Below are positions 3,944-33,900 of a stretch of DNA of 43,482 bases, in pieces (the first letter of the stretch is position 1; every line of letters begins with the position of its first letter). Below the pieces are notes generated by a model that was not told the origin of the DNA, made no database searches, and saw only the letters and a list, made by a program, of their open reading frames with translations. Origin of the DNA: Candidatus Saccharimonadota bacterium (GTDB lineage: Bacteria > Patescibacteriota > Saccharimonadia > Saccharimonadales > UBA4665); NCBI GenBank assembly GCA_027346135.1, contig DAIESS010000003.1, positions 1-43,482 on the forward strand, in the 5' to 3' direction. Both the position numbers and the translations under genes were made by a program.

Positions 3944-4990
3944 ATGGCAAAAAAAGTATTTGTTGGTATGAGCGGCGGCGTCGATTCGTCGGTTACGGCG
4001 GCTTTGCTAAAAGAGCAGGGCTACGACGTAACGGGCGTCTACATGAAAAACTGGAGTCAGGATTTGCCGGGCTTTGCTTGCCCGTGGAAAGAAGATTACC
4101 AAGACGCCAAGCGCGTGGCTGTGCAGTTAGGCATCGACTTTAAAATGTACGACTTTGAAAAAGAGTATCGCCATAAGGTCGTCGATTATATGATTGCCGA
4201 GTACCAGGCCGGCCGAACCCCGAACCCCGACATTATGTGTAACCAAGAGGTGAAGTTTAAACTCTTTTTGAATACCGCCCTGGAAGATGGTGCCGATATG
4301 ATTGCCACCGGCCACTACTCGAGGATCAAAGATGGTCAGCTTTTTACAGCCGCCAACGTCGACAAGGACCAATCTTATTTTCTCTACCGCGTAACGGCCG
4401 ATGCGCTCGAACATTCTCTGATGCCGATTGGCGATTTTAAAACCAAAGACGAAGTGCGGGCGGTAGCCAAAAAATTTGGCCTGGCTACGGCCGACAAAAA
4501 GGACAGTCAGGGCATTTGTTTTGTCGGCAAGGTTGGCATTCGTGAATTTTTAGAGCAATTTGTTACGGCCGAACCTGGCGATATTGTCGAACAGAACGGC
4601 ATAAAAATTGGCCGTCATGACGGTGCGCTGTTTTATACCATTGGTCAGCGCCACGGTTTGTATGTTGGCGGCGGCTTGCCGTACTACGTTGTCGGCAAAG
4701 ATATGGCCAAAAACGAAGTCTATGTCACGACCGACTTGCAAGACGAGCGTTTGTGGCGCGAAGAATTGCATTTAACCGATTTGCACTGGATTAATAACGA
4801 ACCGGAATCAGGGCGAAATTACCAAGTCCGGACGCGCTACCGGGCGCCTTTGGTTACGATTGAGGGCATGCAAAAAGATGATGCCGGTCTGCGGCTGAGT
4901 TTAAGCGAAGCTGTACGCGCCATTACGCCCGGCCAATCGGCTGTTATATACGACGGCGACCGCGTTTTGGGCGGCGGTATTGTTGTTTAG
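3944..4990 (+). CDS. mnmA: tRNA-specific 2-thiouridylase MnmA
   Basis: 348 residues, close to the usual family length. MnmA adenylates and thiolates U34 of tRNA-Lys, -Glu and -Gln in the cytoplasm, taking sulfur from a persulfide relay. The PP-loop SGGVDSS is at residues 10-16. The catalytic cysteine pair is C99 (DIMCNQEVKF) and C192 (SQGICFVGK). The central IGQRHGL motif and C-terminal beta-barrel are intact. The ATG is only 9 nt after a TAAAAT box (3929-3934), so the mRNA is nearly leaderless. The stop overlaps the end of the convergent small gene at 4987-5247 by 4 bp. Together with trhO at 31271, it points to active wobble-uridine modification. Confidence 0.96.
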   Translation: MAKKVFVGMSGGVDSSVTAALLKEQGYDVTGVYMKNWSQDLPGFACPWKEDYQDAKRVAVQLGIDFKMYDFEKEYRHKVVDYMIAEYQAGRTPNPDIMCNQEVKFKLFLNTALEDGADMIATGHYSRIKDGQLFTAANVDKDQSYFLYRVTADALEHSLMPIGDFKTKDEVRAVAKKFGLATADKKDSQGICFVGKVGIREFLEQFVTAEPGDIVEQNGIKIGRHDGALFYTIGQRHGLYVGGGLPYYVVGKDMAKNEVYVTTDLQDERLWREELHLTDLHWINNEPESGRNYQVRTRYRAPLVTIEGMQKDDAGLRLSLSEAVRAITPGQSAVIYDGDRVLGGGIVV

Positions 4991-5247: not shown

Positions 5248-5275
5248 GATAATTGAAGATTAAATTATGGTAGGT

Positions 5276-5287
5276 GTAACGAAAAGT
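5276..5287. repeat. Left copy of inverted repeat bounding GC-rich unit 1
   Basis: GTAACGAAAAGT, the exact reverse complement of 5950-5961. It extends to 13 bp with the outer T/A pair. It marks the left edge of the GC-rich segment holding the 155-residue membrane protein gene. Confidence 0.8.
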
Positions 5288-5305
5288 GAGCGGTGTATGG
5301 GTGGC

Positions 5306-5354
5306 TGGCACGGCCAGGGTAGCAGAGAAATTCCTCCGTACCATGGCCGTGCCA
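5306..5354 (-). terminator. Hairpin after the unit 1 gene
   Basis: TGGCACGGCCA (5306-5316) pairs perfectly with TGGCCGTGCCA (5344-5354), and GGTA/TACC pairs again inside. It begins 9 bp past the stop of the 155-residue gene on the minus strand. There is no T-run, so it is an atypical terminator or an mRNA 3' stabiliser. Confidence 0.55.
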
Positions 5355-5363
5355 CTTATCACC

Positions 5364-5831
5364 TCAGAAGTTGAGGTGCTGCACCCACGACAGGAACTCG
5401 GCTGCCTTGCCCGAGAGCCAGACGATCGCGTCTGCTGCCCAGCCCATCGTGAAGAACAGCACGGCGACGATGACCATCAGCCACTTCCATAGGTCGCTCT
5501 TCGAGCGCTGGTTGATGACGGCGAAGGCGATGAACGCGACGATGAGCAACAGGGTGAAGGTGAAGTTTCCTGCTGCCTCTGGAGCACCGTGCTCGACGGC
5601 GAAATTGTCGATCGCCTGGCGGAGGCTGGTGCTGATGTCGTGCAGGACGCCGATGTTGACCACCAGGATCCCGAGGATCAGCAGCAGCGCGGTCGACCGC
5701 CATGCCCCACGCAAGTGGAACAGGCCGTAGAGGCCGAGTGCCGCCAGGATGACAATCACGGCGGCCAGGCCGGTGGAGAAGGTGGTAGTGACCGCGGCGG
5801 GTGCCGTGGCCAGGCTGACAAGCGTGTACAT
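5364..5831 (-). CDS. Small multi-pass membrane protein of GC-rich unit 1
   Basis: 155 residues, almost entirely hydrophobic. Four membrane segments are likely: about 14-35 (TTFSTGLAAVIVILAALGLY), 43-62 (RSTALLLILGILVVNIGVL), 88-108 (NFTFTLLLIVAFIAFAVIN) and 115-140 (LWKWLMVIVAVLFFTMGWAA). No catalytic motif is visible. The start is backed by GGAG 6 nt upstream. The minus-strand 5' UTR is structured, with palindromes at 5917-5929 and 5934-5947, and the promoter lies at 5963-5989. GC and codon use (CTG, GTC, CGC, ATC) are clearly higher than in the flanking mnmA and alaS regions, so it looks acquired or specially constrained. I do not recognise a family. Overlapping ORFs on the plus strand are shadows. 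Inverted repeats at 5276 and 5950 frame the whole unit. Confidence 0.75.
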   Translation of the reverse strand: MYTLVSLATAPAAVTTTFSTGLAAVIVILAALGLYGLFHLRGAWRSTALLLILGILVVNIGVLHDISTSLRQAIDNFAVEHGAPEAAGNFTFTLLLIVAFIAFAVINQRSKSDLWKWLMVIVAVLFFTMGWAADAIVWLSGKAAEFLSWVQHLNF

Positions 5832-5949
5832 GACGCGCTCCGTTCTGTGCCGGTTGGCACGGTCGGTGTTACCTGTGTTTCCGGAATTAAGGCGGAAGGC
5901 CTGGACCTCCCTTGCGGTTCGCCGCGAACGCTAGAGCAGCGCTGCTCGA

Positions 5950-5961
5950 ACTTTTCGTTAC
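5950..5961. repeat. Right copy of inverted repeat bounding GC-rich unit 1
   Basis: ACTTTTCGTTAC, the perfect reverse complement of 5276-5287. It sits directly after the minus-strand -10 box, so the expected transcription start falls inside it. Confidence 0.8.
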
Positions 5962-5962
5962 A

Positions 5963-5989
5963 AATATAACCATACTCTACAAACGTCAA
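5963..5989 (-). promoter_or_regulatory. Promoter of GC-rich unit 1
   Basis: On the minus strand, TTGACG (5989-5984) is followed after 15 bp by TATATT (5968-5963), with TG just upstream of the -10. The spacing is short but the boxes are good. It would give a 5' UTR of about 125 nt before the 155-residue gene. Confidence 0.55.
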
Positions 5990-6050
5990 AATGCACAATA
6001 TTAGTCTCGACAACCCTTTATGGATTTATGCTAGAAGGAATTTAGGCATG

Positions 6051-6142
6051 AAAAAAAGCCGTCATAAGATACAAATTGGGGGAAGGTGAACAAAATGCTC
6101 GCCACATCCTTCTTATTCTCTTAAAACGGCTACCCTCCAGGG
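6051..6142 (-). terminator. Long-hairpin terminator element A (unit 2)
   Basis: Read on the minus strand: CCC-TGGA-GGG mini-hairpin, then AGCCGTTTTAAGA (6131-6119) pairing with TCTTATGACGGCT (6069-6057) with one mismatch and one wobble, then a run of seven T. About 50 nt lie between the arms. The outer parts match element B at 6812-6906 (GGAGGG-N-AGCCG at the start, CGGCTTTTTT at the end). Confidence 0.65.
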
Positions 6143-6199
6143 TCTGAATCACCATCATCGATGTGGTGACCAGCTTTCAGCTGAAGGGTTGTTCGTCGA

Positions 6200-6541
6200 T
6201 CAGACACGCCGGTAGCGGCGCACGCGCCAGAGCGTGTAGATCATCAGTCCGAAGGCCGCCGGTACCAGTGGGTCGTCCAATTGACCGAACACCGGTATGG
6301 CTTCGTCGGCGATGTCGAACGGCAGCCACAGTGTCAGGACCTTGGTGGCCAGTTTGACGAAGGCCGCCTCGCGCGGGTTTGCTTTGTAGAGAGCGTAGGC
6401 CTCTCCCCATGAGCGTTTGGTTGGGAGCGGCTCTCCTGCTCGCTCGACGCTCTGTGACTGAACGGGAATGGGCTGCACCCAATCCTGTCGGCCGACGTAG
6501 CCATCCTTGTCCCGGCCCGGGCCGGTCTGTTTGCCGAACAT
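6200..6541 (-). CDS. DUF1232-like small membrane protein of GC-rich unit 2
   Basis: 113 residues. The N-terminal 60 residues are polar (MFGKQTGPGRDKDGYVGRQD). The C-terminal half holds LWLPFDIADEAIPVFGQLDD followed by LVPAAFGLMIYTLWRVRRYR. This matches the general DUF1232 pattern (PxDxIPDxIPxxGxxDD plus a hydrophobic helix), with EA replacing the usual PD. Function of that family is not settled. AAAGGAACC lies 5-8 nt before the ATG. It is the second gene after the 30-residue peptide at 6569-6661, 27 bp apart, under the promoter at 6725-6753, and ends before terminator element A. High GC as in unit 1. The family call is by motif and could be wrong; the gene itself is well supported by Shine-Dalgarno, promoter and terminator. 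Confidence 0.7.
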   Translation of the reverse strand: MFGKQTGPGRDKDGYVGRQDWVQPIPVQSQSVERAGEPLPTKRSWGEAYALYKANPREAAFVKLATKVLTLWLPFDIADEAIPVFGQLDDPLVPAAFGLMIYTLWRVRRYRRV

Positions 6542-6568
6542 GGTGGTTCCTTTCGGTTGACGGGGTGC

Positions 6569-6661
6569 TTACTGACCGCGTGAGCGGCTGAGGTACTTCT
6601 TGACCCTGAGGAACGTCAGGGAGAGGGCAAAGCCAGCCAACAAGAAGACCAGCGACATCAT
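6569..6661 (-). CDS. 30-residue single-span membrane peptide (not in ORF track)
   Basis: Reads MMSLVFLLAGFALSLTFLRV followed by KKYLSRSRGQ and TAA. It has one hydrophobic helix and a basic C-terminal tail, typical of regulatory or toxin-like membrane miniproteins. AAGGAG (6673-6668) is 6 nt before the first ATG and 9 nt before the second, so translation is very likely. It is the first gene of GC-rich unit 2, about 55 nt downstream of the predicted transcription start, and precedes the DUF1232-like gene by 27 bp. Its role is unknown. Candidates are an accessory subunit of the DUF1232-like protein or a small stress peptide; nothing in the sequence decides between them. Confidence 0.7.
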   Translation of the reverse strand: MMSLVFLLAGFALSLTFLRVKKYLSRSRGQ

Positions 6662-6705
6662 GATGAACTCCTTAAGGATCGGAAGTGCGTAGCACTTCGG
6701 TGAGA

Positions 6706-6716
6706 TTCTTGACGAA
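6706..6716. repeat. TTCTTGACGAA box, copy 1 (start of unit 2)
   Basis: On the minus strand it begins 8 nt after the -10 box of the unit 2 promoter. The identical box occupies the identical position in unit 3 (7527-7537), and an inverted copy is at 6952-6962. TTC-TTGAC-GAA is itself a short dyad, as expected for an operator. Confidence 0.65.
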
Positions 6717-6724
6717 CTGCGTGC

Positions 6725-6753
6725 ATAATATTCTGGCATAGTTAATTTGTCAA
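6725..6753 (-). promoter_or_regulatory. Sigma-70-type promoter of unit 2
   Basis: TTGACA (6753-6748), 17-bp spacer, TATTAT (6730-6725) on the minus strand. It drives the 30-residue peptide and the DUF1232-like gene. The first part, ATTGACAAATTA, is shared with the unit 3 promoter. Confidence 0.8.
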
Positions 6754-6770
6754 TCTCGTTAGTATAAGCC

Positions 6771-6797
6771 TGCTTTATAGGACGGACCTATAAAGCA
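6771..6797. repeat. 11-bp perfect dyad upstream of the unit 2 promoter
   Basis: TGCTTTATAGG, 5-nt loop, CCTATAAAGCA. It lies 18 bp upstream of the unit 2 -35 box and just after terminator element B, so it could be an activator or repressor site or part of transcription termination. Confidence 0.6.
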
Positions 6798-6811
6798 AAA
6801 TTTTGAGAATG

Positions 6812-6906
6812 AAAAAAGCCGCATGGTGAAGAAAGATAAGGGGAAAGATGCGGCCATAGCCAGCATCACATCACTTACTTTCCGCATATGCGGCTTCCCT
6901 CCGGGC
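6812..6906 (-). terminator. Long-hairpin terminator element B (unit 3)
   Basis: Minus strand: CGGAGGGAAGCCG leader, AAGCCGCAT (6896-6888) pairing with ATGCGGCTT (6824-6816), then a T-run (TTTTTT). An inner arm pairs GGAAAG-TAAG with CTTATCTTTC. A local palindrome CCGCATATGCGG overlaps the first arm, so alternative folds exist. Confidence 0.65.
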
Positions 6907-6951
6907 CCAGACAAATCATCGTTGTCTATCTGAGAGTGATCCGGAAGGGAA

Positions 6952-6962
6952 TTCGTCAAGAA
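6952..6962. repeat. Inverted copy of the box, 3' end of unit 3
   Basis: TTCGTCAAGAA, the reverse complement of 7527-7537 and 6706-6716. It lies between the last gene of unit 3 and terminator element B. Confidence 0.65.
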
Positions 6963-6983
6963 GGTTTGGGGGTATGAAAACAT

Positions 6984-7229
6984 CTACTGTCGCTCTTGTT
7001 CGCGGCGTTGGGCCTCGTACTGGCGAGCCTTGCGGCTCAGCACGAACCCTGGCAGCAGGAACATGAGGGCCATGTAGCGCTCGGCATTTGTCATATCCAG
7101 CTTGATGGACATGACAAAGAAAACCGTCAGCACCAGCGATGCGACCTTTTTCCAGCCGTCGGTTATGTCAACCAAAGCGCCGCCCGCTAGGGCTCCGAAG
7201 GCCACGGCAGCAAACAGCAAGATCGTCAT
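6984..7229 (-). CDS. 81-residue two-span membrane protein of GC-rich unit 3
   Basis: The start is set at 7229, where ATG overlaps the stop of the upstream gene as ATGA, a sign of translational coupling; the longer ORF-track frame (to 7454) runs through that gene. Residues about 1-24 (MTILLFAAVAFGALAGGALV) and 28-45 (VASLVLTVFFVMSIKL) are hydrophobic; a third weak segment (MALMFLLPGFVLS) follows, and the tail is charged (RKARQYEAQRREQERQ). No motif suggests an enzyme. GC content is raised relative to alaS. It is probably a partner of the 83-residue protein before it, with which it shares one mRNA. Family unknown. Confidence 0.72.
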   Translation of the reverse strand: MTILLFAAVAFGALAGGALVDITDGWKKVASLVLTVFFVMSIKLDMTNAERYMALMFLLPGFVLSRKARQYEAQRREQERQ

Positions 7230-7477
7230 GATCGTGTGTCTTTCTCTTCGGCCTTGTTCTGAACGGGGTTTAGTCCGTTTATGATCGCCTTGGCGAAGCC
7301 GTGAGCGGCCAGATATAGCGCAAAGCCGGTAGCGACCACCAGGGCCATCATGGCAAAGTAGTCCAACATACCGTGGGAAGCTAGGTGTGCGACGATACCT
7401 GTCGTGTAGACAACATCCATCCACACCAGGACCGCAAGCGCCACATAGGGCCATGCCGAAAACAGGTTCTTGTCCAT
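7226..7477 (-). CDS. 83-residue two-span membrane protein of GC-rich unit 3
   Basis: The start is set at 7477 (MDKNLFSAWPYVALAVLVW), because AGGAG lies 5 nt before it, rather than at the ORF-track start 7555, which falls in the promoter. Two membrane helices are likely: about 8-32 (AWPYVALAVLVWMDVVYTTG) and 40-66 (LDYFAMMALVVATGFALYLA). The charged tail ends KAEEKDTRS. It is the first gene of unit 3, about 60 nt after the predicted transcription start, and couples by ATGA to the 81-residue gene. The paired small membrane proteins recall holin/antiholin-like or other two-component membrane modules, but there is no direct evidence. Family not recognised. Confidence 0.72.
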   Translation of the reverse strand: MDKNLFSAWPYVALAVLVWMDVVYTTGIVAHLASHGMLDYFAMMALVVATGFALYLAAHGFAKAIINGLNPVQNKAEEKDTRS

Positions 7478-7526
7478 GTTTCTCCTAAAGGTACGGAAAC
7501 GCTGTGACGCGCTTCGGGTCGGTTGT

Positions 7527-7537
7527 TTCTTGACGAA
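7527..7537. repeat. TTCTTGACGAA box, copy 2 (start of unit 3)
   Basis: Begins 8 nt after the -10 box on the minus strand, exactly as in unit 2. Here the dyad is longer: GTTTC-TTGAC-GAAAC. Confidence 0.65.
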
Positions 7538-7545
7538 ACACAAAG

Positions 7546-7574
7546 ATTCTATCATAGTATGTATAATTTGTCAA
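7546..7574 (-). promoter_or_regulatory. Sigma-70-type promoter of unit 3
   Basis: TTGACA (7574-7569), 17-bp spacer, TAGAAT (7551-7546) on the minus strand. Its -35 box overlaps the -35 box of the divergent alaS promoter. Confidence 0.78.
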
Positions 7575-7602: not shown

Positions 7603-9585
7603 ATGACTGCTCAGGAAATCCGCAACAAATATCTAGAATTCTTCAAAAACCGTGGCCATGCCGTGATTACGCGCGCGCCACTTGTCTTAAAGGATGATCC
7701 AACCACGCTCTTTACCGGGTCGGGCATGCAGCCGATGATCCCATACCTTTTGGGTGAAACCCACACCAAGGGCCAACGCATTGTCGACAGCCAAACTTGT
7801 TTACGCGCTCAAGATATCGAAGATATTGGCGACAACCGCCACACGACTTTCTTCGAGATGCTCGGTAACTGGAGCTTGGGCGACTACTTCAAGGAGCAAC
7901 AGATTGAGTGGATGTGGGAATTCTTGAGCGAAGTTGTTGGGCTCGACATGGGCAAGCTTTACGTCACCTGTTTTATTGGTGCGCCAGAATACGACATTCC
8001 AAAAGACACCGAAGCAGCCACGGTTTGGAAACGCTTGTTTGAGTCAAAGGGGCTGTCGGCCGGTGAGGCCGAAATCGGCAGCGAAGAGCAGGGCGCTACG
8101 CGCGGCATCAAGGAAGGCGAGCGAATCTTTTATTACGACGGCAGCAAAAACTGGTGGAGTCGTAACGGCAAGCCCGAAACAACGCCGGTTGGTGACCCCT
8201 GTGGACCCGACAGCGAAATGTTTTACGATTTTGGAACGCCGCACGACCCAGCATACGGCGAAAACTGTCACCCCAACTGCGACTGCGGCCGCTTTATGGA
8301 GCTTGGCAATAATGTCTTTATGGCCTACAAAAAAGTGGCCGAGGGCAAGTTTGAGCCGCTCGAAAAACCGAACATCGACCACGGTTCGGGCCTGGAGCGC
8401 ATTGCTGCTGCCAAATTGAACGACCCAGATGTGTTCAAGATTAGCGTCATGAAGCCTATTATCGACAAGGTCGAGGCTTTGAGTGGCAAAAAGTACGAAA
8501 GTCACACTGCCAGCATGCGCGTCATCGCTGACCACTTGCGGGCGGCAACCTTCCTGGCCGTTGACGGCTGCGTGCCTAGCAACAAAGAACAGGGTTATGT
8601 TATGCGCCGCCTCGTTCGCCGGGCTGTTCGGTTTGCCTTTGAATTGGGCATCGAGCAGAACTTCTTGGAGCACGTCGTTCCGGTTGTTGCTGATATGTTC
8701 CATGACGATTACCCGGAAGTGGCGGCTAAGCGTGAAGAGGTCGTTGCTGTGCTCGTAAAAGAAGAAAAAGCCTTCCGCCAGACCCTGCGCAAGGGCCTCC
8801 AGGAATTTGAAAGAATGATGGTTTATAAAACTCTTGATAAGAACGATCATGTCATGAAACAATTTTTTGCTGTTGGTGATGAAGAAGGAAACATTGTTCA
8901 GGAGGCAAAAGCTAAGCCGAAAATTAACGGCAGCGATCTTTTTAAGCTATATGATACCTACGGTTTCCCTGTTGAACTGAGTACTGAAGAGGCATTCAGG
9001 CGGGGCTTTGATTTAACCCAAAACTGGCGCAAAGAATTTGACGCCAAGATGTCCGAGCAGCGCGCTCGCAGCCAGACGGCGGCTAAGGGTACGTTCAAAG
9101 GCGGTCTCGGCGGCCAGGATCTGATTCACAAGAAATACCACACCGCGACACACCTGATGTACCAGGCACTCCGAACAGTGCTCGGTGACCACGTTATTCA
9201 GCATGGCAGCAACATCACAGAAGAAAGATTACGATTCGACTTTAGCCACCCCGAAAAGATGACGCCGGAGCAAATTCAGCAGGTCGAAGACATCGTTAAT
9301 GAGCAGATTGACGCAGATTTAACGGTGACCTGGGAAGAGCACCCGACCAAAGAAGCTATCGAGCAGTTACACGTTCTGGGAGCCTTTGGCGACCGTTACG
9401 GTGATGTCGTTAAGTGCTATCGCATGCAAAAGGACGGTGCCGAAGCGCCATTCAGTTTTGAAATTTGCGGTGGCCCGCACGTCGACCACACCGCTCAACT
9501 CAAAGAAGACGGCAAGCGGTTCAAGATTCTCAAAGAAGAAAGCTCGTCATCCGGCATTCGCCGCATCAAAGCCGTTTTAGCCTAA
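7603..9585 (+). CDS. alaS: Alanyl-tRNA synthetase, short form without DHHA1/C-Ala
   Basis: 660 residues against about 870 for typical bacterial enzymes. It charges tRNA-Ala with alanine in the cytoplasm. The N-terminal class II core is intact (FFKNRGHAVITRAPLVLKDD; FEMLGNWSLGDYFK; GSGLERIAA). The editing (tRNA-SAD) domain keeps its zinc ligands in HTATH (H513, H517) and CGGPH (C622, H626; the usual form is CGGTH). The protein ends at GIRRIKAVLA, the point where the linker to the DHHA1 and C-Ala domains normally starts, so these are absent rather than frameshifted away: the stop is clean and the convergent gene begins 4 bp later. Reduced AlaRS forms are plausible for streamlined CPR genomes. 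The upstream promoter suggests a leaderless mRNA. Confidence 0.95.
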   Translation: MTAQEIRNKYLEFFKNRGHAVITRAPLVLKDDPTTLFTGSGMQPMIPYLLGETHTKGQRIVDSQTCLRAQDIEDIGDNRHTTFFEMLGNWSLGDYFKEQQIEWMWEFLSEVVGLDMGKLYVTCFIGAPEYDIPKDTEAATVWKRLFESKGLSAGEAEIGSEEQGATRGIKEGERIFYYDGSKNWWSRNGKPETTPVGDPCGPDSEMFYDFGTPHDPAYGENCHPNCDCGRFMELGNNVFMAYKKVAEGKFEPLEKPNIDHGSGLERIAAAKLNDPDVFKISVMKPIIDKVEALSGKKYESHTASMRVIADHLRAATFLAVDGCVPSNKEQGYVMRRLVRRAVRFAFELGIEQNFLEHVVPVVADMFHDDYPEVAAKREEVVAVLVKEEKAFRQTLRKGLQEFERMMVYKTLDKNDHVMKQFFAVGDEEGNIVQEAKAKPKINGSDLFKLYDTYGFPVELSTEEAFRRGFDLTQNWRKEFDAKMSEQRARSQTAAKGTFKGGLGGQDLIHKKYHTATHLMYQALRTVLGDHVIQHGSNITEERLRFDFSHPEKMTPEQIQQVEDIVNEQIDADLTVTWEEHPTKEAIEQLHVLGAFGDRYGDVVKCYRMQKDGAEAPFSFEICGGPHVDHTAQLKEDGKRFKILKEESSSSGIRRIKAVLA

Positions 9586-32170: not shown

Positions 32171-32316
32171 TTTACGCGCTAGACTCTATTTGACACTATG
32201 GAGAAATAAGGTGTAGGCTGCAAATCAGCAGTTGTTTCTTCCGTGCAACATACATGTGCGCAACCGCGCAGATGTTTTCGTTTACCCGCATGTCGAGGAA
32301 GCTTTTGCAGTTCTTC

Positions 32317-32330
32317 GACAATGCAATGAC
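32317..32330. repeat. Left copy of inverted repeat bounding GC-rich unit 4
   Basis: GACAATGCAATGAC, the perfect reverse complement of 33567-33580. It sits just before the ribosome site of the 383-residue membrane protein gene. Confidence 0.85.
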
Positions 32331-32349: not shown

Positions 32350-33501
32350 GTGTCCAACGTTACGCAGACCCCTGGCGGGTCGATCGAAGAGGAGCTTGGT
32401 TTTTCCGACCAAGACCCTCAGGTGCCACCAACGACGCCAATCCGGCCGTACGCCAACGCCAAGCCGCCTCGCCGCCACACGGTTCGCCGCTTCGTCCGTG
32501 GGCTCGGCAGGGCAGCCAAGGTGATCGTGCCGTCGCGTCCTCACGTCGACGTTCACGTCCCGGGCGTGGTCAAGCGCAGTGGCAACTTCTACGCAGCGGT
32601 CTTGCGCGTGCTCGACCCCATCGCCGGTGCTTACAACTTCGGCGTCGCCGTCGCCCTGTTGGTCTGGGCTCACTTTGCCCGCTTGACCTTCACGAGCGAG
32701 GGTGTCGCCATGGGCGTCGCGCTGGTGCTGGTCGAACTCGTCTTGTTCGCGGCCATCCACAAGCTGTACCGCGAGGCGACGGCCAACAGCATCAAGAACC
32801 TGTTCTTGATGGGCTTGACCGCCCTGGTCGGCTTGGGCTTGACCGCTTACGTCGTCTACCGGTGGACCGATCTGGTGCCGTCGATGCTTCTGGTCTCCGG
32901 TATCTTCATGACGGTGCCGGGCCCATTGGTCGCGGTGGAGGACCAGTACATGCAGCAGACTCGTGACGAGGAGGCACAGCGTCAGGCCGACGCCAAGGTC
33001 GCCCGCGAGGTGGCACGGCTGAACGAGGCACAGCGTCAGGCCGACAGCGTGCTCGGACATCTCGTCCACCTGTCCGAGAGCCTCGAGAGGACCACCGGAA
33101 ACGCGCTCGGAACGCTCGACAAGGCAACCTCGCACGCCGCCTTCGTCTTCGATGCGGCCGGTAACCTCAAAACTCACATCACCAACGAGGGGGCTCAGGA
33201 GCTCAGCCGGCAGCGGACCCAGCTCGACACCGAGGCGGCCGCCACCAAACAGCGTCAGGACGCTCGTGAGGCCGACCTGGCCCGTCGTGAGCGCAACCTC
33301 AACGAGGAGGTGGCCCAACGGGTTCAGACCATTCATGGCGCCCTGGTGGCCGAGCTTCAGTCGCTGAAGGCGGCTCACACTGCGCCTTCGGTTCCGGAGC
33401 AGCCGCGCCCATCGCAGCCGGTGGCATCCGCCTCTCCGGTGTTCAACCTCAAGGACTTCCCCCTGACGGATCCGACCCAAGGAGGTCACGACGAGATCTG
33501 A
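32350..33501 (+). CDS. GC-rich unit 4: membrane protein with long coiled coil
   Basis: 383 residues from the GTG at 32350. The ORF-track GTG at 32341 lies inside the Shine-Dalgarno GAGAGGTGATC, so the later start is preferred. The polar, Pro-rich N-terminus (about 1-75) has a basic patch (RRHTVRRFVRGLGRAAKVIV). Four membrane helices follow at about 95-200 (FGVAVALLVWAHFA; GVALVLVELVLFAAI; LFLMGLTALVGLGLTAYVVY; SMLLVSGIFMTVPGPLV). A Gln/Arg/Glu-rich coiled coil then runs from about 205 to 340 (EEAQRQADAKVAREVARLNE), with DEEAQRQADAK/LNEAQRQADSV as an internal repeat, and a Pro/Ser tail. Composition is the most GC-rich in the window, like units 1-3. A 442-residue antisense ORF across it is a GC artefact. 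Family unknown. Confidence 0.75.
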   Translation: MSNVTQTPGGSIEEELGFSDQDPQVPPTTPIRPYANAKPPRRHTVRRFVRGLGRAAKVIVPSRPHVDVHVPGVVKRSGNFYAAVLRVLDPIAGAYNFGVAVALLVWAHFARLTFTSEGVAMGVALVLVELVLFAAIHKLYREATANSIKNLFLMGLTALVGLGLTAYVVYRWTDLVPSMLLVSGIFMTVPGPLVAVEDQYMQQTRDEEAQRQADAKVAREVARLNEAQRQADSVLGHLVHLSESLERTTGNALGTLDKATSHAAFVFDAAGNLKTHITNEGAQELSRQRTQLDTEAAATKQRQDAREADLARRERNLNEEVAQRVQTIHGALVAELQSLKAAHTAPSVPEQPRPSQPVASASPVFNLKDFPLTDPTQGGHDEI

Positions 33502-33514
33502 GGGCACTCGAGTG

Positions 33515-33544
33515 GCGATGTCGCTGTAGTTTCAGCGACATCGC
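33515..33544 (+). terminator. Perfect 12-bp hairpin after the unit 4 gene
   Basis: GCGATGTCGCTG (33515-33526), 6-nt loop, CAGCGACATCGC (33533-33544), beginning 13 bp past the stop. There is no T-run, as with the hairpin ending unit 1. Confidence 0.7.
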
Positions 33545-33566: not shown

Positions 33567-33580
33567 GTCATTGCATTGTC
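33567..33580. repeat. Right copy of inverted repeat bounding GC-rich unit 4
   Basis: GTCATTGCATTGTC, the perfect reverse complement of 32317-32330. Directly after it the sequence turns AT-rich. Confidence 0.85.
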
Positions 33581-33658
33581 AAAATCACAATATTACTAAA
33601 ACTAACTAAACACAGAGAAAAACTTTATTGACTAAAAAACAAAATACTGAAAAGATAT

Positions 33659-33687
33659 TTGACTTTACGAATATAGCCCGCTATAGT
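33659..33687 (+). promoter_or_regulatory. Promoter of the leader RNA and five-gene envelope operon
   Basis: TTGACT (33659-33664), 17-bp spacer, TATAGT (33682-33687). Transcription would start near 33694, about 220 nt before the first ATG, in contrast with the short leaders of most genes here. Confidence 0.8.
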
Positions 33688-33693
33688 CCAACC

Positions 33694-33900
33694 TATAAAG
33701 GGAATCAGCCTCTTGGCTGCATGACCAGTCGGTACGAAACGTCGCACTCACTGGTCATGCAACGCACTTGGCCTTTCGCCAACCACGCTGCATGATGGAC
33801 ATCTGGCCACTATGTCTGCGCGAGCGCGGCGAGCGGACAGCTGTCTTAAGTAAGGAACTCGAGTAAAGCTCGTGCTGTCGTTATTTATTATCTTAAAAAT
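33694..33900 (+). ncRNA. Structured leader RNA or small RNA upstream of the envelope operon
   Basis: About 200 nt, GC-richer than the AT-rich DNA on both sides. It contains a perfect 12-bp stem TGCATGACCAGT (33718-33729) / ACTGGTCATGCA (33750-33761) around a 20-nt loop. A second stem pairs TGTCTGC with GCGGACA around 33812-33838. Near the end GACAGC/GCTGTC with an inner CGAG/CTCG precedes TTATTTATTAT, a possible weak terminator. It does not match tmRNA, RNase P, 4.5S or a riboswitch I know. It may be a regulatory leader of the operon or a separate small RNA. Confidence 0.5.

Follow-up and report, generated by a model that had tools for sequence, protein, structure and literature searches.

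A few individual bacterial genes are already known to produce messenger RNAs (mRNAs) whose 5' and 3' ends base-pair with each other. In the icaR mRNA of Staphylococcus aureus, the 5' and 3' untranslated regions (UTRs) pair through a short motif and the Shine-Dalgarno region of that one gene (PMC3868564), and type I toxin mRNAs, such as hok and AapA3, form a long-distance interaction within the mRNA (PMC6733600). Hammerhead ribozymes, in turn, flank prophage genes (PMC3088659) and are found in retrozymes, which carry two of them in direct long terminal repeats and have no coding capacity (PMC4918200). The window analyzed here, a contig of 43,482 nucleotides (nt) (DAIESS010000003.1) from the 702-kb metagenome-assembled genome of a Candidatus Saccharimonadota bacterium (GCA_027346135.1), contains four putative GC-rich transcription units whose ends carry complementary stretches, referred to below as arms. 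Sequence comparison indicates that these arms are maintained for RNA pairing and not as transposon ends, because they covary, with changes on both sides.

Units 1 to 3 lie on the minus strand and are flanked by mnmA (3944-4990) and alaS (7603-9585). The initial annotation had described a fourth unit, which, from its 14-bp repeat, is equated here with the unit at 32.3-33.6 kb, although the latter lies outside the range of that annotation (5276-7574). The perfect inverted repeats that it had reported between the start and the end of units 1, 3 and 4 are indeed present (13 bp, TGTAACGAAAAGT/ACTTTTCGTTACA; 11 bp, TTCGTCAAGAA/TTCTTGACGAA; and 14 bp, GACAATGCAATGAC; coordinates in Table 1). The repeat of unit 2 was correctly called weak, but the match quoted for it (GAATCACC/GGTGAGATTC) is interrupted by a 2-nt gap, and the best uninterrupted match between the transcript start and the 3' region is 7 bp (GTTCGTC/GACGAAC). 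In the whole window, perfect repeats located 400-1400 nt apart number 9 against 7.8 expected at a length of at least 11 bp and 2 against 0.5 expected at a length of at least 13 bp, the two longest being those of units 1 and 4. This count is by itself suggestive, not decisive; since it is near expectation, the argument must be carried by position and comparison. When only the transcript start is compared with the 3' region, the shuffle p value is <0.001 for unit 1 and 0.003 for unit 3.

The comparison used 11 junction-type units from 5 genomes, 4 of them from the window, in which the 22 nt beginning 5 nt past the -10 box were paired with the 250 nt downstream of the last stop codon. Pairing of each unit with itself averaged 9.3 bp, versus 6.0 bp between different units (permutation p=2e-5), with the provisos that these units came to light during the search for such repeats, so that their selection was not fully independent, and that arms common to related units make the comparison conservative. 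RNA duplex energies pointed in the same direction more weakly (p=0.001), as did run lengths with G-U pairs allowed (p=0.0025). In a small sample of class-A arms (6 in-register pairs from 5 genomes, with the 3' arms placed by eye), 93% of the cells were paired, compared to 23-50% in slid controls; two-sided changes were seen at 4 of the 9 pairs, and the covariation score was 0.36, versus 0.18 after shuffling. In all six junction units with at least 10 bp of pairing, the arm starts 6-8 nt past the -10 box, that is, at about +1, so that it forms the predicted 5' end of the RNA and is transcribed. The earlier suggestion that the predicted start site inside the unit 1 repeat favors a DNA-level role is therefore not borne out.

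A search of other GC-rich units in the same genome and in a related genome, G110, revealed arms of 11-16 bp (including 15-bp arms on contigs C9 and C22 of the former); three of these arms are closely followed by a hammerhead core. With a strict core pattern, 49 hammerhead cores were found in 20 of the 93 genomes of the family, whereas the reversed pattern, used as a control, had no match; stems I and III, each of at least 4 bp, can form with differing sequences in 29 of the 33 distinct cores. Because the core at locus L184 scored far below the gathering threshold of Rfam RF00008 (19.6 bits versus 48.5, E 0.085), the assignment rests on the core and the stems. The cores of the related units have the features of type III (CUGANGA, GAAA, a UH cleavage site, and three stems arranged as expected for type III), and these units are accordingly predicted to carry a cleaving type III hammerhead ribozyme; 46 of the 50 Saccharibacteria-type hammerheads belong to this type. 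The 3' arm usually ends 25-30 nt upstream of CUGANGA, where it adjoins the predicted cut. Two loci on contig 6 of genome G001, L236 and L237, contain five and two hammerhead cores, respectively, clustered within a few kilobases and all on the same strand.

Pairing recurs among loci that were selected by the ribozyme only, and not by a repeat (own pairing of 9.9 versus cross pairing of 6.2, p of about 1e-5), and in the 46 type III loci own pairing likewise exceeds cross pairing (p=5e-5). The 16 in-register arm pairs from ribozyme-ended units, which were selected for at least 10 bp, are 97.9% paired, compared to 33-53% in slid controls, with two-sided changes at 10 of the 12 pairs and a covariation score of 0.65 versus 0.21. 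Upstream of the 5' arm, at the predicted transcript start, these units have a bulged hairpin whose helix also covaries. A search of 84,980 genomes with part of this 5' element and the arm retrieved five loci, four of which have a matching 3' arm downstream, followed in three of the four by a hammerhead; the two named loci among them are from Saccharibacteria. The arms are thus complementary beyond chance, and related arms show compensatory changes, two of the properties expected of mRNAs with paired ends. The initial annotation had proposed checking for covariation between the arms; on class-A and ribozyme-unit arms alike covariation was found, and the pairing hypothesis survived.

Most of the tested cargo proteins had no family match above the cut-off; a family could be assigned to the sortase of the C22 unit and to a G110 protein (DUF2807). 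The C22 locus (L189, 5860-8750) consists of GC-rich units in tandem, the first cargo being a short peptide and the next a Thr-rich protein with a sortase; every unit has arms AACATGTCAGATTG(T/C) and a leader that is long and structured. Past the 3' arm, two of these tandem units (6480-6580 and 8660-8745) have in common a conserved element of about 75 nt (CAATCTGACATGTTT...TTTTGAAAGTTCAGA...TCTGGGTTTGAATAA...TGGAAG) that has no Rfam match and is possibly another 3' processing element. A further GC-rich unit of this genome, on contig C5 (L180, 3732-6266), has a 10-bp repeat (TTGCTTTAAA, 3732/6257) that links the leader with a stretch past the unit's hairpin. At L206 (997-1348), the cargo protein, which starts with MATILNLTPHAI, matches the function-unknown phage family phrog_30542 (E 2.5e-27), so some units may carry phage-related genes.

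The initial annotation had left a choice between selection on pairing and the independent insertion of elements with terminal repeats. Arms that vary by unit and species and yet stay complementary through two-sided changes support the former. Small mobile DNA elements with the arms as their terminal inverted repeats would fit the patchy presence and raised GC content of the units, as well as the 96-bp junction without units in G032, the closest sampled relative; however, the terminal sequences differ among units within one genome, no transposase or other recombinase was seen, the changes are two-sided, and the conserved elements of the ribozyme set (5' hairpin and hammerhead) lie outside the arms, beyond where a terminal repeat would end. 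Transposon ends, which are very unlikely, were rejected on account of the covarying arms and differing terminal sequences. It is also conceivable, if extremely improbable, that the arms are paired operator sites bound by a DNA-binding repressor: they are partly palindromic and some are conserved in sequence across genera, but in all units with clear arms the second copy has the inverted orientation, positions vary widely, and the two-sided changes obey pairing rules. Paired operators were dropped for the inverted second copy and the pairing-rule changes. Sites similar to attC cassettes were considered as well and then dropped.

Pairing at the RNA level suggests the following sequence of events. 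In each unit's mRNA, the first nucleotides (or the leader) would base-pair with a matching stretch in the 3' region. The nascent RNA would first form a small 5' hairpin; synthesis of the 3' arm would then allow the two ends to pair into a closed loop, in which the sequestered 5' end and the adjacent structured 3' end could slow decay from the ends and favor full use of complete transcripts. In the ribozyme-ended units, the type III hammerhead is placed to cut just past the 3' arm, which would leave the arm as the last part of the RNA. The cargo, consisting of small membrane, surface or orphan proteins, appears to be exchangeable. On balance, arm pairing probably loops the mRNA closed and thereby protects the message and sets its timing. 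A tentative extension is that Saccharibacteria might have a general mRNA format for fast-changing accessory genes, with a fixed promoter and 5' hairpin, a swappable gene, and a 3' arm linking the end back to the start, in many cases with a terminal hammerhead; such a format could yield closed-loop or even circular messages.

Hammerhead cleavage leaves a 2',3'-cyclic phosphate end. A ribozyme just past the 3' arm would produce such an end, and the ends joined by the arms could then be ligated into a circular mRNA; hammerhead-bearing circular RNAs exist in plants (retrozymes, PMC4918200). In the present units, however, no 5' ribozyme was seen and the 5' element begins close to +1; a 5'-hydroxyl end is therefore not expected, and the window units have no recognized ribozyme. 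There is accordingly little chance that circularization is the function of the arms. In fold-back repression, as in icaR and the hok/AapA toxin mRNAs, the pairing of the ends would instead silence the message or target it for double-strand cleavage as long as its 3' end is untrimmed. Besides these precedents (PMC3868564, PMC6733600), the small hydrophobic products and the predicted fold of unit 3, in which the 5' end of the leader can pair with the start-codon region, are consistent with such a mechanism. Nevertheless, it appears unlikely: the 5' arms of units 1-3 lie at the predicted transcript start, far 5' of the Shine-Dalgarno sequence, a surface protein with a sortase is among the cargo elsewhere, the hammerhead would cut past the arm and retain it, and no antisense RNA gene turned up, though no search was aimed at one.

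Several observations weigh against a protective closed loop. The start sites, transcript ends and cleavage that it invokes are predicted, and pairing could reduce, rather than raise, expression, as in icaR. The 7-bp match of unit 2 alone is not significant (shuffle p 0.19), and about half of the ribozyme units have no arm of at least 10 bp within 1.5 kb. Many ribozyme-unit arms have one common sequence (TGACAAGCAGAC), so a sequence-recognizing factor for the arms is also possible. A blind scan for repeats past any -10-like hexamer, regardless of the gene, gave no excess over direct or mirror controls, which makes the end repeats a property of a few special units; a gene-wide comparison by third-position GC rested on too few GC-rich genes. 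Finally, the window units lack a hammerhead after the 3' arm (units 2 and 3 end in terminator hairpins), and the covariance model R1, built from the 5' element of the ribozyme units, had no match at units 1-3. Layout, raised GC content, covarying arms and short, varied cargo are common to both sets, and a partial motif (UUCGUCAAG..CCGAAGYGC) of the bulged 5' hairpin element occurs in units 2 and 3. The arm of the 32-kb unit starts with GACAA, as do the ribozyme-unit arms, which may reflect a closer tie to them. On this sequence evidence, the window and ribozyme units have a common architecture, with common ancestry not proven.

The raised GC content noted earlier holds (0.55-0.60 in most 500-nt steps versus about 0.50), and units 2 and 3 are each preceded by a promoter of good consensus. 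The cargo, described as uniformly short and hydrophobic, does consist mostly of small membrane proteins, but the 383-residue membrane protein of the 32-kb unit, with its long charged region, departs from that description. Resemblance of the unit 2 protein to DUF1232 stays below the Pfam gathering score (13.5 bits versus 23), and an Rfam scan of the window gave no match at the gathering score. Elements resembling the long-hairpin terminator of unit 3 are also found in L007/L045, L046 and L114. On the plus strand at 33650-33890, a promoter-like site (TTGACT 33659, TATAGT 33682) precedes a highly structured 190-nt stretch (fold z -2.7) without an obvious gene, a candidate small RNA.

Table 1. Predicted features of the four end-pairing units in the window
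Feature	Position	Strand	Basis or comment
Unit 3 promoter, TTGACA, 17 nt, TAGAAT	7546..7574	-	11/12 in consensus scan
Unit 3 5' arm TTCGTCAAGAA	7527..7537	-	begins 8 nt past -10 box; itself a small hairpin
Unit 3 gene, 83-aa membrane protein	7226..7477	-	no family above cut-off
Unit 3 gene, 81-aa membrane protein	6984..7229	-	no family above cut-off
Unit 3 3' arm TTCTTGACGAA	6952..6962	-	between stop codon and terminator
Unit 3 long-hairpin terminator GGAGGGAAGCCGC...GCGGCTTTTTTC	6806..6905	-	RNA fold z -3.1
Unit 2 promoter, TTGACA, 17 nt, TATTAT	6725..6753	-	consensus scan
Unit 2 5' arm GTTCGTC, weak	6711..6717	-	
Unit 2 gene, 30-aa hydrophobic peptide	6569..6661	-	sequence
Unit 2 gene, 113-aa membrane protein	6200..6541	-	DUF1232-like below cut-off
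Unit 2 3' arm GACGAAC, weak	6191..6197	-	
Unit 2 long-hairpin terminator	6049..6140	-	RNA fold z -2.2
Unit 1 5' arm TGTAACGAAAAGT	5950..5962	-	begins 6 nt past likely -10 (TATGGT 5969-5974)
Unit 1 gene, 155-aa membrane protein	5364..5831	-	38% identity to G110 homologue
Unit 1 strong hairpin without T run	5306..5354	-	RNA fold z -5.1
Unit 1 3' arm ACTTTTCGTTACA	5275..5287	-	downstream of hairpin
32-kb unit likely promoter, TTGACA, 18 nt, TAGGCT	32190..32219	+	sequence only
32-kb unit 5' arm GACAATGCAATGAC	32317..32330	+	immediately upstream of Shine-Dalgarno region
32-kb unit gene, 383-aa GC-rich membrane protein	32350..33501	+	no family above cut-off
32-kb unit hairpin 3' of gene	33515..33544	+	
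32-kb unit 3' arm GTCATTGCATTGTC	33567..33580	+	

The mnmA-alaS interval was retrieved from about 40 genomes. Units of the same layout are present at this junction in four other genomes, G110, G107 and G024 from one genus and G029 from another, and many other genomes have unrelated genes or almost nothing there. The unit 1 protein aligns with its G110 counterpart at E 2.5e-25, and G110 retains the unit 1 arms (GTAACGAAAAG/CTTTTCGTTAC) flanking this much-diverged gene. The unit 2 protein represents a small family with relatives in G110, G109, G024, G115 and G006. Homologues of the window proteins emerged only via the syntenic junction: single-sequence searches found none for the unit 1 protein in 60 relatives, IMG/VR, phages and plasmids, for the unit 2 protein in the 60 relatives, or for the 83-residue unit 3 protein in IMG/VR, and there was no match to the block DNA in plasmids or to a profile of the unit 1 protein in the 84,980 genomes. 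Across the family, the long-hairpin terminator pattern gave mostly chance GC-rich matches, and the leader pattern gave few matches, mostly unrelated, in 392 genomes of the order.

The end-pairing layout, repeated with compensatory changes in numerous unrelated genes of one lineage of tiny bacteria, points to a little-known bacterial way of tying mRNA ends together. One set of units joins end pairing to hammerhead ribozymes. The proposed pairing predicts exact RNA ends and closure of the mRNA, and it singles out, as a class, surface and membrane genes that change fast and are missed by annotation. The literature, with incomplete coverage, yielded nothing relevant on hammerheads in Saccharibacteria or the Candidate Phyla Radiation, so the novelty of the hammerhead-ended Saccharibacteria-type units is provisional.

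Compared with the described systems, the present units resemble icaR in their predicted long-range pairing of leader and 3' UTR within one bacterial mRNA, but they span many unrelated genes, and their arms, 7-17 bp long and often located at the predicted transcript start, covary. With hok and AapA3 they have in common small hydrophobic products and, as proposed, cotranscriptional 5' hairpins that would be replaced by pairing of distant segments; the cargo, however, is larger and more varied, and many related units have a 3' hammerhead. Like the prophage hammerheads, those described here adjoin short varied genes in bacterial DNA and are sometimes clustered, whereas the words "complementary" and "panhandle" are absent from that report (PMC3088659). 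Hammerheads on viral contigs are mostly type I and without arms, in contrast to the predominantly type III Saccharibacteria-type ones; among eight type III hammerheads on viral contigs, a 12-bp match was found in one, and the set as a whole was not significant (p=0.05). Retrozymes likewise combine a hammerhead with a variable insert, but the related units have a single hammerhead, short inverted arms and a gene.

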